From: Providencia vermicola
Lineage (GTDB): Bacteria; Pseudomonadota; Gammaproteobacteria; Enterobacterales; Enterobacteriaceae
Assembly (NCBI RefSeq): GCF_010748935.1
Contig: NZ_CP048796.1
Span: forward strand, 127,001-191,000
Length of the DNA stretch: 64,000 bases
Direction of reading: 5' to 3'
Part shown: in pieces, positions 11,002 to 17,428 of the stretch
Numbering within the stretch: position 1 is the stretch's first letter
How the letters are laid out: each line of letters starts with the position of its first letter
Notes under the pieces: generated by a model
Databases searched by the model: none
What the model was told of the DNA's origin: nothing
The model's input: the letters and a program-made list of their open reading frames with translations, nothing else
Translations under genes and position numbers: made by a program

Positions 11002-11733
11002 TATGCAGGATGCCTCTTATACAGACGCTGGTGGATTCATGAGTATTTTCGGATTCGCCAGCGTGGTAGATTTTTCAAACAAAGTGCATAGGAAGCTAAG
11101 CTTGCCAGTCAAAGAGCAGTAAGCACAGACGGATAGCGGTGAAAGTGTACAAACTAAAAAGCCTTAATTGTGAACCTTCCACTAATGGCCGGAAAGGGGG
11201 TTCAAGCCATCTACATCATATGGCTGCAATATAAGAGGATGAAATATCGTTTTGTCGGTAAAGGAAAAAATACTTTCGATAGGGGAAAAACCCTCCGTGT
11301 CTGCTCTGCTTAAACTGCATGAGTTATACGAATAAAGCGGACCCAAAGCGTTTTTTTATCTCTTCTTCACCTATTTAATAAGCCTTTTTAAATACCCAGT
11401 CATGGTTCAATCTACCGAAAATGTTCAATGGTTAGATTATTCAAACATGTTTTTGAATAGGGCAGCACGATAACATTGACTCATAAATCAGCTTACCTCT
11501 GGAAGCCAAATCAAAAGATATATTTTATCTTTCAATTACGTCATTCTTTTGGCTTTTTTTCGCTTTTTAATCCGATTTAAGAGTATAAAAAGTCGCCATG
11601 CTCAAATACGTGTATTCAGGTATCATCACGTATTTTTCTGGCATATTATATCTAATTTTCTGAAAATTAATTATTTTTAGTTAATTTATTGTTGGTATAT
11701 AGCGAAATGTAACGAGGTATAAATGAGATCATA
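11002..11733. other. Scar region between the G+C-rich cassette and the fimbrial locus
   Basis: There is no intact gene. It holds the integrase remnant at about 11190-11335 and, after 11340, AT-rich sequence that must include the promoter of the recombinase gene. Base composition drops sharply here from the cassette to its right flank. Confidence 0.6.
11190..11335 (+). pseudogene. Probable remnant of an integrase N-terminus (DUF4102-like)
   Basis: One frame reads WLQYKRMKYRFVGK. After a one-base shift it continues KILSIGEKPSVSALLKLHEL. Together this matches the usual N-terminal strand pattern of P4-type integrases (W-x-KYRF-xGKEKxLSIG-xYPxVSL). It is short and frameshifted, with no intact start. 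The assignment rests on pattern memory and is tentative. Confidence 0.45.
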
Positions 11734-12300
11734 ATGACTAAACGTAAATTTATTACACGAACAGAAGTGAATTCCCTATTAAAAGCAACACAGCAAGGTC
11801 GCTATCCCAACCGCGACTATTGCTTGTTATTAATGAGTTTCCTACATGGTCTAAGGGTTAGCGAGCTTACTCATATCACTATGTCGGATATTGATTTTAT
11901 ACAGAAAGTTATCTATATCAGGCGATTAAAAGGGGGGCTATCCACTGTTCAACCGATAATCCCAGAAGAATTTACCGCGATAGAAAGATGGTTAATTGAG
12001 AGAGACTCTTGGAAAACTTCTGGCTCAGATTGCTTATTTATCTCTCAGAAAGGGAGCCAAATCTCTCGCTATCAAATCTATCGTCTATTTGAGCAATACG
12101 GCAAAATCGCCGGACTTCCTGTCAAGCTCCACCCGCATATGCTAAGACATGCATGTGGATATGCATTAGCTGATCTCGGTAGGGATACTCGATTAATTCA
12201 AGACTATTTAGGCCACCGAAATATAGCCCATACTGTCATTTATACCGCAAGTAATGAAAAACGCTTTAGTGGTATTTGGTCTAATCAAGAGACGGCTTAA
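11734..12300 (+). CDS. mrpI: Fimbrial phase-switch tyrosine recombinase (MrpI/FimB type)
   Basis: This 188-residue protein has the size of FimB/FimE/MrpI, single-domain relatives of lambda integrase that invert a promoter-bearing DNA element. Catalytic residues are visible: R41 (HGLRVSEL), H135 and R138 (HPHMLRHA), H161 (LGHRN) and Y170 (HTVIYTA). It sits upstream of a fimbrial operon, as in the Proteus mrp locus, and a 311-bp segment with inverted-repeat ends lies 510 bases downstream. Function as the switch for that element is strongly suggested. Which direction it favours (ON to OFF or both) cannot be read from sequence. Confidence 0.9.
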   Translation: MTKRKFITRTEVNSLLKATQQGRYPNRDYCLLLMSFLHGLRVSELTHITMSDIDFIQKVIYIRRLKGGLSTVQPIIPEEFTAIERWLIERDSWKTSGSDCLFISQKGSQISRYQIYRLFEQYGKIAGLPVKLHPHMLRHACGYALADLGRDTRLIQDYLGHRNIAHTVIYTASNEKRFSGIWSNQETA

Positions 12301-12357
12301 TGAGCGATGTCAGCATGAAACCAAAGCTCAATATTATAAAATGAATTAAATATCAGG

Positions 12358-12405
12358 AACACCACAGTTATTCAGCTGATTGGCTTTATGGCTGAGGTGT
12401 TTTTA
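12358..12405 (+). terminator. Terminator after the recombinase gene
   Basis: The arms AACACC and GGTGTT enclose an inner CAGC/GCTG helix and are followed by a short T-run (TTTTTAT). This would separate recombinase transcription from the switch. Confidence 0.5.
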
Positions 12406-12810
12406 TAAAGAAGTTGAGATCACTATTCCTCAAATAGAGCGGTAGATACATTATATTAAAATATGGTTAGTTAATTATTTTACTTATTTTTCTTTAACCA
12501 ATTATCATCATTTAAATACTCTAAATATGAGTATTTATACTTACGTGTAAAATTAACAATATATTATCAATAAAAATACATAAGAATTACACAGATGATC
12601 TTATTGAGATTGTCATATAAAGATAATTTATAGACATAAAAAACTGATTTAATATTTTCCGGTGTTTAATGCTAAAGTGGTTATTTTACGCAATTTAAAT
12701 AACTGAAAAATAAAATTATAAAGCAAAAAATAAGATGAAAATATAAACAAAATAAAACAATGCATATAAATCAATGGTGTATATCAAATGCCGTTTAAAA
12801 TCAAATGGTA

Positions 12811-13121
12811 ACGCAACATAATAAATCAAAATGTTTAAAATGCTTAATAAGTATAATTCTGAGACTAACCAAAATCAAACAGCATAAAGTTCTGTTTGCA
12901 TAATACTTTTTAGCTATTATCAGCAATTAATGTATAAATTTGTTATCTACAACAAAAAGTTACCGACTGCGGTGTGTTTATCAAAAAAAAATAACTAGTC
13001 AAATGATCTATCCTTACTATACATATACGCAAATTAAAGATTTTAATTCTAAAAAATACAATATATAAAACAAATTTGCTAAAACCTATTTTACGCAACA
13101 TTTTGATTTATTTTGTTGCGT
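12811..13121. repeat. Invertible DNA element bounded by 24-bp inverted repeats
   Basis: The left repeat at 12811-12834 (starting ACGCAACATAATAAATC) and the right repeat at 13098-13121 (ending TTTTGTTGCGT) are inverted copies that match at 23 of 24 positions. The element they bound is about 311 bp. It lies between a MrpI/FimB-type recombinase and a fimbrial operon, the position of known fim and mrp switches. The internal promoter at 12850-12878 faces left, away from the operon, so the drawn orientation is OFF. Confidence 0.85.
12850..12878 (-). promoter_or_regulatory. Sigma-70-like promoter inside the invertible element, facing left
   Basis: On the minus strand, TTGATT (12878-12873) and TATACT (12855-12850) are separated by exactly 17 bases. 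It is the best promoter match that I see in the element. In this orientation it fires toward the recombinase. After inversion it would fire into the MrpJ-like gene and the pilin operon from about 13054-13082. Confidence 0.65.
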
Positions 13122-13207
13122 TTATTGATTGCAAGATAATCGAATTATTTGCTTTTTAGGCGGGATTGATTATGTAGCCATATTACATAAAGCTTTATTG
13201 GTGAGAT

Positions 13208-13597
13208 ATGAAAAATAATAAGTTAAAAACCAGTATAGATAATTTTCAGAAAATAATAACTGAACAAATTGGTTTGGAATTATCCCATCTTAGAAAAGAA
13301 AAAGGACTAAGTGGTAAAGATCTAGCTAAAAAATTAAAGATATCACAACAGCAAATTTCTAGATATGAAAGAGGAGTCTGTAGCATTAATTGTGGAATGC
13401 TATTTTCAATCTTATTTTATCTAGATACTCATCCTAGTAAGTTTTTCGAAAATATAATATCTAAAATAAATGAAGAATATCCTGATGCTAATTCATTTAT
13501 TCATAACAATGAACATTTTTCAGATGAGCAAGATGATTTTCATTATATTTTCAATCGACAAACAGAAATTATATTAAATTCTGTATACAGTAAGTAG
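13208..13597 (+). CDS. MrpJ-like XRE-family regulator
   Basis: This 129-residue protein has a Cro/CI-type helix-turn-helix at residues about 22-80. It contains SQQQISRYERG (46-56), the recognition-helix motif that I know from the MrpJ family of fimbria-linked motility repressors. In P. mirabilis mrpJ is the last gene of the mrp operon. Here the gene is first, between the invertible promoter element and the major pilin, 82 bases before the pilin start. If the switch turns ON, this regulator would be made before the pilins. Repression of flagella is inferred from the family. Confidence 0.8.
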   Translation: MKNNKLKTSIDNFQKIITEQIGLELSHLRKEKGLSGKDLAKKLKISQQQISRYERGVCSINCGMLFSILFYLDTHPSKFFENIISKINEEYPDANSFIHNNEHFSDEQDDFHYIFNRQTEIILNSVYSK

Positions 13598-13679
13598 TTA
13601 TTAAAAAAACATACAGTTTTAACTATGCTCACTTAATTGTTGAGTAACCATCACTTTGTTATATATCAATGAGGTTCAA

Positions 13680-14243
13680 ATGAAAAAAGTATTTGTAGCA
13701 GCACTTGTTTCTGCCGCTATCGCTTCTCCAGCACTCGCTGATCAAGGGCATGGTAAAGTGACCTTTAAAGGTGAAATTATCGATGCACCTTGCTCAATTA
13801 GCGCTGACTCTATTGACCAAACAGTATGGTTGGGCCAAATTGCTAACTCTGTTTTAGCAAATGGCGGAACTTCTAGTGCTAAACAATTCAATATTGAATT
13901 GGAAGACTGTGTATTCCCTAAAGATGCAGAAGACAAAGTCTACAATGACAAGGTCAACATCACATTCTCTGGCGCTAGTGCTGCGTTTAACCCTAAATTA
14001 TTAGGTGTAACAGGCTTAGATGCAACGGACCCAACTAGCGCTGGTAACGTTGGTATTCAATTAATTGATACAAACGGTGTTGCATTAGATATGGGTGTTG
14101 CTACAGCACAAGAACATCAATTACAAGCGGGTGATAATATTCTGCGCTATAGCGCTTACGTACAAGGTGCAAACGTTGCAGTAGATAAAATCCCCCTAGG
14201 TAAATTCGAAGGTGTGACTAACTTTACCTTAACTTATAACTAA
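13680..14243 (+). CDS. Major fimbrial subunit (MrpA-like pilin)
   Basis: This 187-residue precursor starts with a signal peptide cut after about residue 20 (ASPALA, then DQGHGKV). The mature pilin has the conserved Cys pair (DAPCSIS and LEDCVF), the GKVTFKGEI start typical of MR/P-type pilins, and a C-terminal beta strand with penultimate Tyr (FTLTYN) used for chaperone capture and donor-strand exchange. The ATG at 13680 follows GAGG and is preferred over the one at 13656, which would add eight residues before the signal peptide. It is the first structural gene of the fimbrial operon, consistent with the major rod subunit. Confidence 0.9.
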   Translation: MKKVFVAALVSAAIASPALADQGHGKVTFKGEIIDAPCSISADSIDQTVWLGQIANSVLANGGTSSAKQFNIELEDCVFPKDAEDKVYNDKVNITFSGASAAFNPKLLGVTGLDATDPTSAGNVGIQLIDTNGVALDMGVATAQEHQLQAGDNILRYSAYVQGANVAVDKIPLGKFEGVTNFTLTYN

Positions 14244-14309
14244 TTGATTAGTTAAAGAGGAGTACTTTCGTATTCCTCTATTAATCACCAAATTAAGTCA
14301 GAGGCTAAA

Positions 14310-14855
14310 GTGAAAGGATTTATCTATTTCCCAAGAAAAGTATCTTCCCTATTTCTGCTAACATTATTTCTTTCGCCACAAATGGCGGCATCACCTCATG
14401 GATGGGGGAAAGTCACAATGGGCGGCGAAATAGTCGATACTGCCTGCGCAATAGATATCGGGTCAAGGGATCAGACCATTAATATGGGGGTACTTCCAAC
14501 AAGCTATATTCGTGAAGTTGGGAAAGGCCCCATAAAAGAGTTCAATATTAAACTTGTTGATTGCCGTTGGGAAAAATACTCAAAAGAGAATAACGAATGG
14601 AATTCATTTGAAGTCACTTTTGATGGTCCATCAGAAGGGGGTTTTTTCACCCTTTCGGGTGAGGCAAAAGGAGTGCAATTGGCATTGCATGATCTCTCCG
14701 GATATTCCATTACACCAGGAAAGCCATTGCCTGCATTAGGAATGACTCCCGGCACAATGATACTGAAATATCAAATGCAATTAGTCACCAACTATCATCC
14801 TGTTAAAGCGGGTAATTACCAAACCTTATTAAGGTTCAAGGTCGATTATTATTAA
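14310..14855 (+). CDS. Minor fimbrial subunit (MrpB-like)
   Basis: This 181-residue pilin-family precursor begins with GTG after AGAGG. Residues about 1-28 form a signal peptide (ending QMAASPHG). The mature part repeats the pilin pattern GWGKVTMGGEIVDTACAID and LVDCRW with a Cys pair, and ends in the alternating strand LLRFKVDYY. It lies between the major pilin and the usher, the place of the termination or anchor subunit MrpB in the mrp operon. The specific role is inferred from order. Confidence 0.8.
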   Translation: MKGFIYFPRKVSSLFLLTLFLSPQMAASPHGWGKVTMGGEIVDTACAIDIGSRDQTINMGVLPTSYIREVGKGPIKEFNIKLVDCRWEKYSKENNEWNSFEVTFDGPSEGGFFTLSGEAKGVQLALHDLSGYSITPGKPLPALGMTPGTMILKYQMQLVTNYHPVKAGNYQTLLRFKVDYY

Positions 14856-14883
14856 TTCTAGAAGTTATATTGGTGTTTTAGGG

Positions 14884-17415
14884 ATGTTTTTTATGTTTTT
14901 TAAACAAGACAAAATAAATATAATAACGACAATGATAATGATTACTTTTGGGTCATTATCAACCCAGTTATATGCCGCCGATACCATACAGTTTAATACG
15001 GCATTATTTGATTTAGAAGACAAAAAAAACATCGATATTAAGCAATTCTCACGTGCTGGCTATATTATGCCTAGCACTTATCCGCTAAAAGTCCAATTAA
15101 ATAAAGAAACTCTGCCTGAGCAACGATTTTCATTTTATGCACCTGAGGATGACCCTGAAGAAAGTCTTGTGTGTATTACTCAAGAACAAGTTCAACAGTT
15201 AGGGTTAACGGCGGATGCTTTGAAGAAAATAACGTGGTGGCATAATAATGAGTGCCTTGATTTAAACAGCTTACCCGGTTTCAAAGCTCATGGGGATTTA
15301 TCTGACTCAACATTATATTTGAGTATTCCTCAAGCCTATCTTGAATATAGAACTACGAATTGGGATCCGCCTTCTCTTTGGGATGAAGGGATTTCAGGGG
15401 CTATTTTAGACTACAACATTAACGCAAGAGCTAATAAGCCTCATGACAACAATAGCAACTATAATATGACGGCAAATGGTGTTATTGGTGTAAACCTTGG
15501 CGCATGGCGCTTTAGGGGAGATTGGCAAGGAAATGCTCAACGAGAAACTGGCTCAAATAGTAAAAGTGAGCATAATTTCCAATGGAGCCGACTTTATATT
15601 TATAAAGCATTAACCAGTATCAAAGCAAAATTGACCTTGGGTGAAGATTATCTAAACACGGATTTATTCGATAGTTTTCGATTTACAGGTATAAGTCTAC
15701 GCTCTGATATTTTAATGCTCCCACCTAATTTACGTGGATATGCACCTGAAATAACAGGGGTTGCGACAAGTAATGCGACGGTCATTGTTAGCCAACAAGG
15801 CAGAATTATTTACCAAGAACAAGTCGCTGCTGGGCCTTTTCGCATCCAAAATTTAAGTGATGCGACGACAGGTAAGCTGGATGTTCGCATCGAAGAACAA
15901 GATGGCTCGGTTCAAGAATATCAAGTTGAAACGGCTAATATTCCTTATTTAACCCGCCCAGGCAGCGTTCGGTATAAATTAGCCATGGGGCGTCCTACAG
16001 ATATGGATCACCATGTCAATGGCGATACATTTGCAAGTGGTGAAATGTCTTGGGGGGTTACCAACGGCTGGTCGTTATTCGCAGGTTCATTAAATAGCCA
16101 AGACTACAATGCATTTAACGTGGGTGTAGGGCGAGATTTATTAGCATTTGGCGCCTTGTCTTTCGATGTTACGCATTCCATTGCAAATATTCCTAACCAT
16201 CAAAAACTGACAGGTAATTCTTATCGAATAAACTATTCGAAACGTTTTGATGATTATGATAGCCAAGTCCAATTCGCAGGTTACCGTTTCTCAGAACGTA
16301 GTTTTATGACGGTGACTGATTTTTTAGCGGCTAAAGATTCAGGTGAGCGTCAAGGCAGTAATAAAGAAATGTATGTGATTTCCTTAAATAAAAATTTTAG
16401 GGAATCAAAAATTACAGCGTATTTAAACTATTCGCATCAAACCTATTGGGATAAGCCAGAAAGCAATCGCTACAACCTCATGGTGACAAAAACCTTAGAT
16501 TGGGGAAGCTTGAAAAATATTAATATTTCGTTATCAGCTTATCGCAATAAATATAACGAAACAAATGATGATGGCCTTTATATCTCAGCATCAATGCCTT
16601 GGGGAAATGGTGCCAATATAGGTTATTCATTACAAGCAACGCGGGATGATACCGTTAATCGAGCAACCTATTATGACAAGCTGTCAGATAGAGCCAATTA
16701 TCAAGTCAGTGCAGGTTCAACCAACAAAGGCGGAACCGCGAGCACCTACCTTACCTATTATGGAGATAGTGCTAAATTAACCGCGAATGCGAGCTATATT
16801 CACAACAATTACACGTCATTTGGGTTAGGGGCTCAAGGTGGAGTCACCATGACCTTAAATGGTGCTGATACTCACCGTGTATCAAATATTGGCGGCACTC
16901 GCTTACTGATCGACACCGACGGCGTAGCTAAAATTCCCGTGTCAGATCGTGGGATCCCTATTGCATCGAATGCATTCGGTAAAGTTGTTGTCCCTGACCT
17001 GAATAGCTATTACCGCAGTAAAGTTAAAGTCGATTTAAACGCATTACCCAATAATGCCGAAATTACTGACTCCATTGTTCAAGCGACATTAACAGAAGGA
17101 GCAATTGGTTACCGTAAGTTTAATGTGTTATCGGGCGAAAAAATGATGCTTTCAATGCGCATGTCTGACGGTTCTGTACCGCCATTTGGTGCTCAAGTTA
17201 CCAATTTAAAAGGAAAAGAAACAGGAATCGTCACTGATAATGGATATGCCTACATCAGTGGTATCAACCCAAATGAAATGATGATTATTCATTGGGGTGG
17301 TGAAGCGCAATGTGAAATTCATTTTCCTGAGAACTTAGAAACAATTAATCAAGGCTTATTTATTCCTTGTAAACCATTATCGAATAAACGTAATGAAACA
17401 GATAATAATCTGTAG
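14884..17415 (+). CDS. Fimbrial outer-membrane usher (PapC/MrpC family)
   Basis: This 843-residue precursor has the normal usher length, with a signal peptide through about residue 32 (TQLYAAD). The order is periplasmic N-domain (FNTALFDLEDKKNIDIKQFS), a beta-barrel core (about 150-660) with the plug domain around residues 230-320 (LRGYAPEITGVATSNATVIV), and C-terminal domains with a Cys pair (GEAQCEIHFP, FIPCKP). Ushers form the secretion pore that receives chaperone-pilin complexes and polymerises the fibre. It is followed five bases later by the chaperone frame. Confidence 0.93.
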   Translation: MFFMFFKQDKINIITTMIMITFGSLSTQLYAADTIQFNTALFDLEDKKNIDIKQFSRAGYIMPSTYPLKVQLNKETLPEQRFSFYAPEDDPEESLVCITQEQVQQLGLTADALKKITWWHNNECLDLNSLPGFKAHGDLSDSTLYLSIPQAYLEYRTTNWDPPSLWDEGISGAILDYNINARANKPHDNNSNYNMTANGVIGVNLGAWRFRGDWQGNAQRETGSNSKSEHNFQWSRLYIYKALTSIKAKLTLGEDYLNTDLFDSFRFTGISLRSDILMLPPNLRGYAPEITGVATSNATVIVSQQGRIIYQEQVAAGPFRIQNLSDATTGKLDVRIEEQDGSVQEYQVETANIPYLTRPGSVRYKLAMGRPTDMDHHVNGDTFASGEMSWGVTNGWSLFAGSLNSQDYNAFNVGVGRDLLAFGALSFDVTHSIANIPNHQKLTGNSYRINYSKRFDDYDSQVQFAGYRFSERSFMTVTDFLAAKDSGERQGSNKEMYVISLNKNFRESKITAYLNYSHQTYWDKPESNRYNLMVTKTLDWGSLKNINISLSAYRNKYNETNDDGLYISASMPWGNGANIGYSLQATRDDTVNRATYYDKLSDRANYQVSAGSTNKGGTASTYLTYYGDSAKLTANASYIHNNYTSFGLGAQGGVTMTLNGADTHRVSNIGGTRLLIDTDGVAKIPVSDRGIPIASNAFGKVVVPDLNSYYRSKVKVDLNALPNNAEITDSIVQATLTEGAIGYRKFNVLSGEKMMLSMRMSDGSVPPFGAQVTNLKGKETGIVTDNGYAYISGINPNEMMIIHWGGEAQCEIHFPENLETINQGLFIPCKPLSNKRNETDNNL

Positions 17416-17428
17416 ATGAGTGATTGCT

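Follow-up and report, generated by a model that had tools for sequence, protein, structure and literature searches.

The mechanism considered here, phase variation of a fimbria by inversion of a promoter, is already well known. The MR/P element of Proteus mirabilis measures 251 bp (PMC5903667) or 252 bp (PMC9820224), its recombinase MrpI is reported to work in both directions (PMC9820224) and the element is typically OFF in the laboratory (PMC7444556), all according to the available excerpts of these papers. The type 1 fimbrial switch of Escherichia coli, fimS, is a 314-bp element between recombinase and operon with the repeat TTGGGGCCA, as given in the available part of PMC9820224. For Providencia itself, excerpts of PMC5903667 (2018) describe a fimbrial invertible site in P. 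stuartii. Like the locus studied here it adjoins a fimbrial locus, in the same genus; it is built differently, however: the element is 844 bp long, contains the recombinase gene and has imperfect repeats of 14 bp. This was the one Providencia fimbrial inversion found in the literature, as far as its text was available, and no description of the switch reported below was found in the same material.

We analysed a window of 64 kb (the whole stretch of Providencia vermicola DNA, to which all positions refer). It contains a pair of inverted repeats between a recombinase gene and a fimbrial operon. This arrangement is very probably a promoter-inversion switch that makes a Providencia chaperone-usher fimbria phase-variable. 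The features of the locus are as follows.

11734..12300, + strand: FimB/MrpI-type tyrosine recombinase, 188 aa (NCBIfam PRK09870/PRK09871 above cut-off)
12359..12400, + strand: conserved stem-loop 3' of the recombinase gene (8/8 intact orthologous loci, -12.9 to -19.2 kcal/mol)
12810..13122, no strand: putative invertible element, 313 bp repeats included, promoter toward the recombinase (OFF)
12810..12835, + strand: left inverted repeat (24/26 columns invariant across 8 loci)
12850..12878, - strand: predicted sigma-70-type promoter, TTGATT-17-TATACT (same place and hexamers in 8/8 intact loci)
13093..13121, no strand: right recombination site, full dyad ACGCAACA - 13 nt - TGTTGCGT (predicted from the sequence)
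13097..13122, - strand: right inverted repeat (26/26 columns invariant across 8 loci)
13208..13597, + strand: MrpJ-like helix-turn-helix regulator, first gene past the element (Pfam HTH_3, 1e-9)
13680..14243, + strand: major pilin (Fimbrial domain)
14310..14855, + strand: pilin-like subunit (no Pfam family at E 0.001; weak NCBIfam fimbrial matches under the cut-off)
14884..17415, + strand: outer membrane usher
17420..18178, + strand: periplasmic chaperone
18186..18803, + strand: minor pilin (start codon picked within a longer ORF from 18102)
18843..19409, + strand: minor pilin
19402..20424, + strand: tip adhesin with a match to the FimH-type mannose-binding domain (Pfam FimH_man-bind 1.3e-10, Fimbrial 1.8e-12)

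The recombinase shares 62% identity with the enzyme encoded next to an MR/P-type operon of Proteus mirabilis, and 53% and 52% with FimB and FimE, respectively. Its active-site residues Arg, His-x-x-Arg and Tyr align with those of FimB and FimE (residue list from the available part of PMC9820224). It is the sole FimB/MrpI-type recombinase in the genome, where four other matches are 24-40% identical. The nearest named relatives, from P. rettgeri YPR31 and RB151 and P. vermicola DSM 17385, are 94-95% identical, among five loci found in a comparison that possibly omitted records close to the window's own genome. A family-wide search at E 1e-60 matched 65 of 392 genomes, and a PHROGs scan returned generic integrase, DNA-binding and repressor families only. 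The stem-loop behind the gene was located by a pattern taken from the locus alignment and is absent from the list of a mechanical terminator scan. It is possibly a terminator that insulates the recombinase gene from the element.

The two repeats are 26 nt long, complementary at 25/26 positions and separated by 261 nt. The preliminary description had placed repeats between an MrpI/FimB-type recombinase and a fimbrial operon, and gene families and order agree with it. Its 24-bp repeats (23/24) exist but are longer than stated, and its element of about 311 bp at 12811-13121 is in the right place with each end one base too far in. With a scoring of match +1/mismatch -2 and an exact 9-base seed, the pair reached a score of 23 and was the sole one of at least 14 at a spacing of 100-1000 nt in the window. 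This score was reached by 0/300 dinucleotide shuffles of 11601-15000 (maximum 16). Allowing up to 3 mismatches, no further copy of the repeat was found in the genome, which comprises 4.43 Mb in 2 contigs. A chance repeat pair was excluded on the grounds of the shuffles and the absence of other genome matches.

The left site differs from the full dyad on the right: its outer arm is ACGCAACA (12811-12818), whereas the inner arm is degenerate (TGTTTAAA at 12832-12839). This inequality is kept in 8/8 intact orthologous loci. A 19-nt site with an intact inner arm occurs once per genome in eight genomes and in 0/16 other Providencia genomes (at most 1 mismatch). The same pattern gave 0 matches in viral_contigs; it is present in the OFF state too and so is not diagnostic of ON. 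The sole mismatch of the pair, at position 12819 (T in the left repeat, A in the right), is identical in 7/8 loci. In the eighth, G021, both repeats carry A, a state that could arise by exchange between the sites.

The predicted promoter lies on the - strand with its -35 hexamer at 12873-12878 and its -10 hexamer at 12850-12855. Its consensus score of 9/12 is not significant, as 12 such sites occur in 11600-15000 versus a shuffle mean of 16.8. Consensus score alone was discarded as promoter evidence, these sites being no commoner than in shuffles, and conservation was used instead. TTGATT-17-TATACT is the only site that has the same position and hexamers in 8/8 intact orthologous loci; its sequence and its direction toward the recombinase are those given in the preliminary description. 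The window's element holds no right-facing promoter of at least 9/12. Right-facing candidates of 9-10/12 occur in six of the seven other intact copies, none of them common to all. The element promoter would thus face the operon in one orientation only, as judged from sequence.

The following course of events is proposed. The recombinase would bind the half-sites at both repeats and flip the 313-bp element. In the present orientation the promoter would point to the 3' end of the recombinase gene and leave the operon silent. Reflection through the element moves the -10 hexamer to 13077-13082. Its distance to the start codon of the first operon gene (ATG at 13208) is then 125 nt, close to the roughly 130 bp predicted earlier. 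By this geometry, regulator and pilins would be transcribed after inversion. No second recombinase of this type was found in the genome, so this one would have to work in both directions, as reported for MrpI, if switching occurs.

The OFF orientation also allows for a different role, in which the flip would mainly control the recombinase, the promoter in its present orientation making RNA antisense to the recombinase gene. The promoter does face the 3' end of this gene, and paralogous loci of the genus (class 2, see below) have the same geometry with an element only 22-41 bp past the aligned recombinase end. In the window, however, about 510 bp and the conserved stem-loop intervene, and the divergent recombinase of MR/P-type loci argues against a general requirement for such a transcript. 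We consider antisense control highly improbable.

The operon past the element was correctly announced as fimbrial; its first gene codes for a helix-turn-helix regulator (HTH_3) and not for a pilin. This protein is 35% identical over 100 aa (E 2e-13) to the product of the helix-turn-helix gene that closes the MR/P-type operon of P. mirabilis, i.e. kinship to MrpJ is present. The fimbria-linked MrpJ family is further defined by repression of motility, a possible role of this regulator. With the regulator gene in first position, the flip would act directly on what may be a regulator of motility, and the locus as a whole probably turns a Providencia adhesin with a FimH-like domain on and off. A family-wide search with the regulator at E 1e-20 found only its own genome among 198, the threshold being too strict.

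The pilins might instead be transcribed from a promoter of their own at 13598-13679, in which case the flip would mainly switch the MrpJ-like regulator and reach the pilins indirectly. The gap between regulator and pilin contains a TATATA stretch and, together with the adjoining gene ends, is conserved in 85/110 columns across eight loci, 46 of them in the last 50. These last columns correspond to a stretch at the pilin start (about 13643-13692, with about 37 nt before the gene and about 13 coding), which at 46/50 invariant columns is more conserved than the element interior (148/261). Yet no good -35 hexamer was recognized by reading, and a transcript from the TATATA would begin approximately at the ribosome-binding site. 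On visual comparison, class 2 loci do not share the gap, G004 shares it only partly, and a plasmid copy of the operon (pR33-1, see below) shares it no further than the ribosome-binding site. A separate pilin promoter is, in our judgment, improbable, and we retain the element promoter as the predicted source of both regulator and pilin transcripts.

For comparison with MR/P we used a P. mirabilis locus (L073, NZ_OL790812) that was deposited as a plasmid yet measures 4.09 Mb, lies in a stretch without annotation and was called MR/P-type by its anatomy and the published size. Its perfect 21-nt repeats span 293 bp and enclose 251 bp; the recombinase is divergent, and a helix-turn-helix gene lies at the distal end of the operon. 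The element of a second P. mirabilis strain (L075) is identical. The window site matches the MR/P-type repeat at 16/21 positions, which was equalled by 2/3000 shuffles. The two systems further share a single recombinase (62%), a small promoter element and an MrpJ-like regulator in the operon (as far as described in the available parts of PMC9820224 and PMC7444556). They differ in layout: the MR/P recombinase is divergent and the regulator last, whereas the window's recombinase reads toward the element and the regulator comes first. By a strict definition of mrp (divergent recombinase, MrpJ-type gene last) the window locus falls outside this system. The regulator-first, co-directional layout is what differs from MR/P; the recombination-site pattern common to both may prove useful for detecting and interpreting further switches.

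The E. coli system resembles the locus in other respects. Its recombinase genes are upstream and co-directional (fimB-fimE-fimA in K-12), its element likewise lies between recombinase and operon, and the window's adhesin has a FimH-like domain. However, fim has two recombinases and 9-bp repeats, while the window has one recombinase, 26-nt repeats and a helix-turn-helix gene. The FimB plus FimE pair and the repeat sequence that define fim strictly are replaced here by one recombinase and a different repeat.

Orthologous loci were compared in 24 Providencia genomes, one per species and including the window's own. These contain 23 recombinase loci at E 1.1e-54 or better, all of which were inspected, the window plus 22 others that were fetched. 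Identity is 24-43% for the weaker matches (E 1e-20 and above). Ten loci are orthologous to the window (class 1, at least 85% identity). An intact repeat pair spanning 312-313 bp is present in eight of them (the window, G018, G005, G008, G014, G009, G012 and G021), and the promoter faces the recombinase in all eight. In the ninth, G019 (L057), the element is interrupted from about 560 bp past the recombinase by what reads as an insertion sequence; the left repeat and some of the common promoter stretch survive before it, oriented as in the intact copies. Its 16.5 kb gave no match to the regulator, the first two pilins, the usher or the chaperone; the adhesin and two pilin genes persist, partly or whole. 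In G004 a single run of 333 N (L058 2806-3138) covers the element's place almost exactly. It may be an assembly gap, perhaps from mixed orientations, or masking.

The assemblies examined show the OFF state only at this locus. The preliminary reading of a promoter-bearing OFF element stands as the best one, but the inverted state that it predicted was seen neither in the eight intact copies nor in the readable part of the ninth, at one genome per species. For a 50:50 switch the probability of the same orientation in all would be about 0.004-0.008. The uniformity reflects either a strong OFF bias in culture or a loss of flipping. In the latter case the element would be fixed OFF, with the recombinase kept for other reasons and the repeats conserved because it binds them. 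A dead switch, too, would show one orientation in the eight intact copies and the readable ninth, and the left inner half-site is degenerate in all eight. The constraint on repeats and recombinase speaks against it. The repeats are near-invariant while interior and flank diverge (148/261 invariant columns in the interior and 34/85 in the leader to the first gene). The recombinase gave dN/dS values of 0.018-0.044 against the seven other intact loci and 0.038 against G019 with its broken element; these ratios are rough, several dS values being above 1, but the gene appears to be under strong purifying selection, with no other repeat copy in the genome (at most 3 mismatches) for its product to act on. 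Furthermore, the regulator and all fimbrial genes are present in the window and in 8/9 fetched orthologous loci, G019 being the exception, and a paralogous switch was seen inverted. We therefore regard a permanently fixed element as unlikely.

This paralogous switch (class 2) is represented by five loci (G005, G006, G007, G012 and G020) with a recombinase 50-51% identical to the window's. Its repeats match at 25/25 positions and span 338-356 bp, and two helix-turn-helix matches precede the pilin. Four loci are oriented alike and G012 is inverted: its interior aligns to the other four only as the reverse complement (82-86%). In the four, a promoter TTGACG-TAAGAT (9/12, spacer 17) is found near the left end, at a distance of about 44 nt; in G012 (spacer 16) it is about as far from the right end. 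Elements of the class 2 layout evidently do invert in Providencia, judging by these assemblies. G012 holds its class 1 element OFF and its class 2 element ON at once. The G012 class 2 element (L067) is also about 75% self-complementary over 292 alignment columns, forming a long imperfect palindrome, and given this self-complementarity its flip may change little.

Because this paralogous switch is inverted in one of five genomes, inversion with a strong OFF bias is the best explanation for the window's element. The one-sided orientation also fits the laboratory OFF state of MR/P, as stated in the available part of PMC7444556. Against this explanation, the class that inverts has a site not significantly like the window's (453/3000 shuffles as good). 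Recombinase family and residues, repeats, conserved promoter, MR/P-like site and a paralogue in both orientations together make an invertible element the best reading; the inversion itself and the start site that it would bring to the operon are what we infer from them.

Five further Providencia loci (class 3: G011b, G004b, G007a, G017 and G019b) have a recombinase divergent from the operon, with a helix-turn-helix match at the operon's far end in G017. A like repeat pair in the gap between recombinase and operon was found in only two of the five (G011b, score 13; G004b, score 11); G007a has two weak other pairs, and the gaps of G017 and G019b have none. The class 3 repeat matches the window site at 15/22 positions (12/3000 shuffles as good). 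The recombinase loci G011a and G016 have no repeat pair of score 14, and a search of both with four short site motifs gave no pair near the recombinase. G022 has one pair with a score of just 14, about 1 kb past the gene. In the recombinase tree, classes 1, 2 and 3 each fall on one side of a branch (100/99, 100/99 and 95/94); branches are long and the deeper order is unsafe.

Plasmids were covered by a query of 2510 bases from the locus against a plasmid collection, which returned 28 records; among the 20 listed none holds 80% of the query. The P. mirabilis and plasmid loci compared here come from this search. The P. rettgeri plasmid pVCSW10.1 (L074, NZ_CP082352) has a 22/22 repeat pair spanning 324 bp, and its repeat matches the window site at 19/22 positions (0/3000 shuffles as good). 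It has the same order of invertase, repeat pair, helix-turn-helix gene and fimbrial operon, but the operon is another one (with three genes annotated as chaperones) and is plasmid-borne.

A more tentative reading, possible but rather doubtful, is that the switch is built to rest OFF and turns on a motility/fimbria regulator before the pili. It would draw on the unequal sites in eight loci, the OFF promoter toward the 3' end of the recombinase gene and the MrpJ-like protein as the first ON product. The module of invertase, element, regulator and fimbrial operon moreover fronts different operons, one of them on a plasmid.

A second copy of the window's fimbrial operon was observed on plasmid pR33-1 (L072 10025-16773, NZ_CP072454), with a pilin 85% and an usher 91% identical. 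In the 20.6 kb examined of this plasmid there is no recombinase match and none of the site motifs, and the operon is not immediately preceded by a regulator gene reading the same way. The copy is divergent from another fimbrial operon, which has helix-turn-helix genes of its own.
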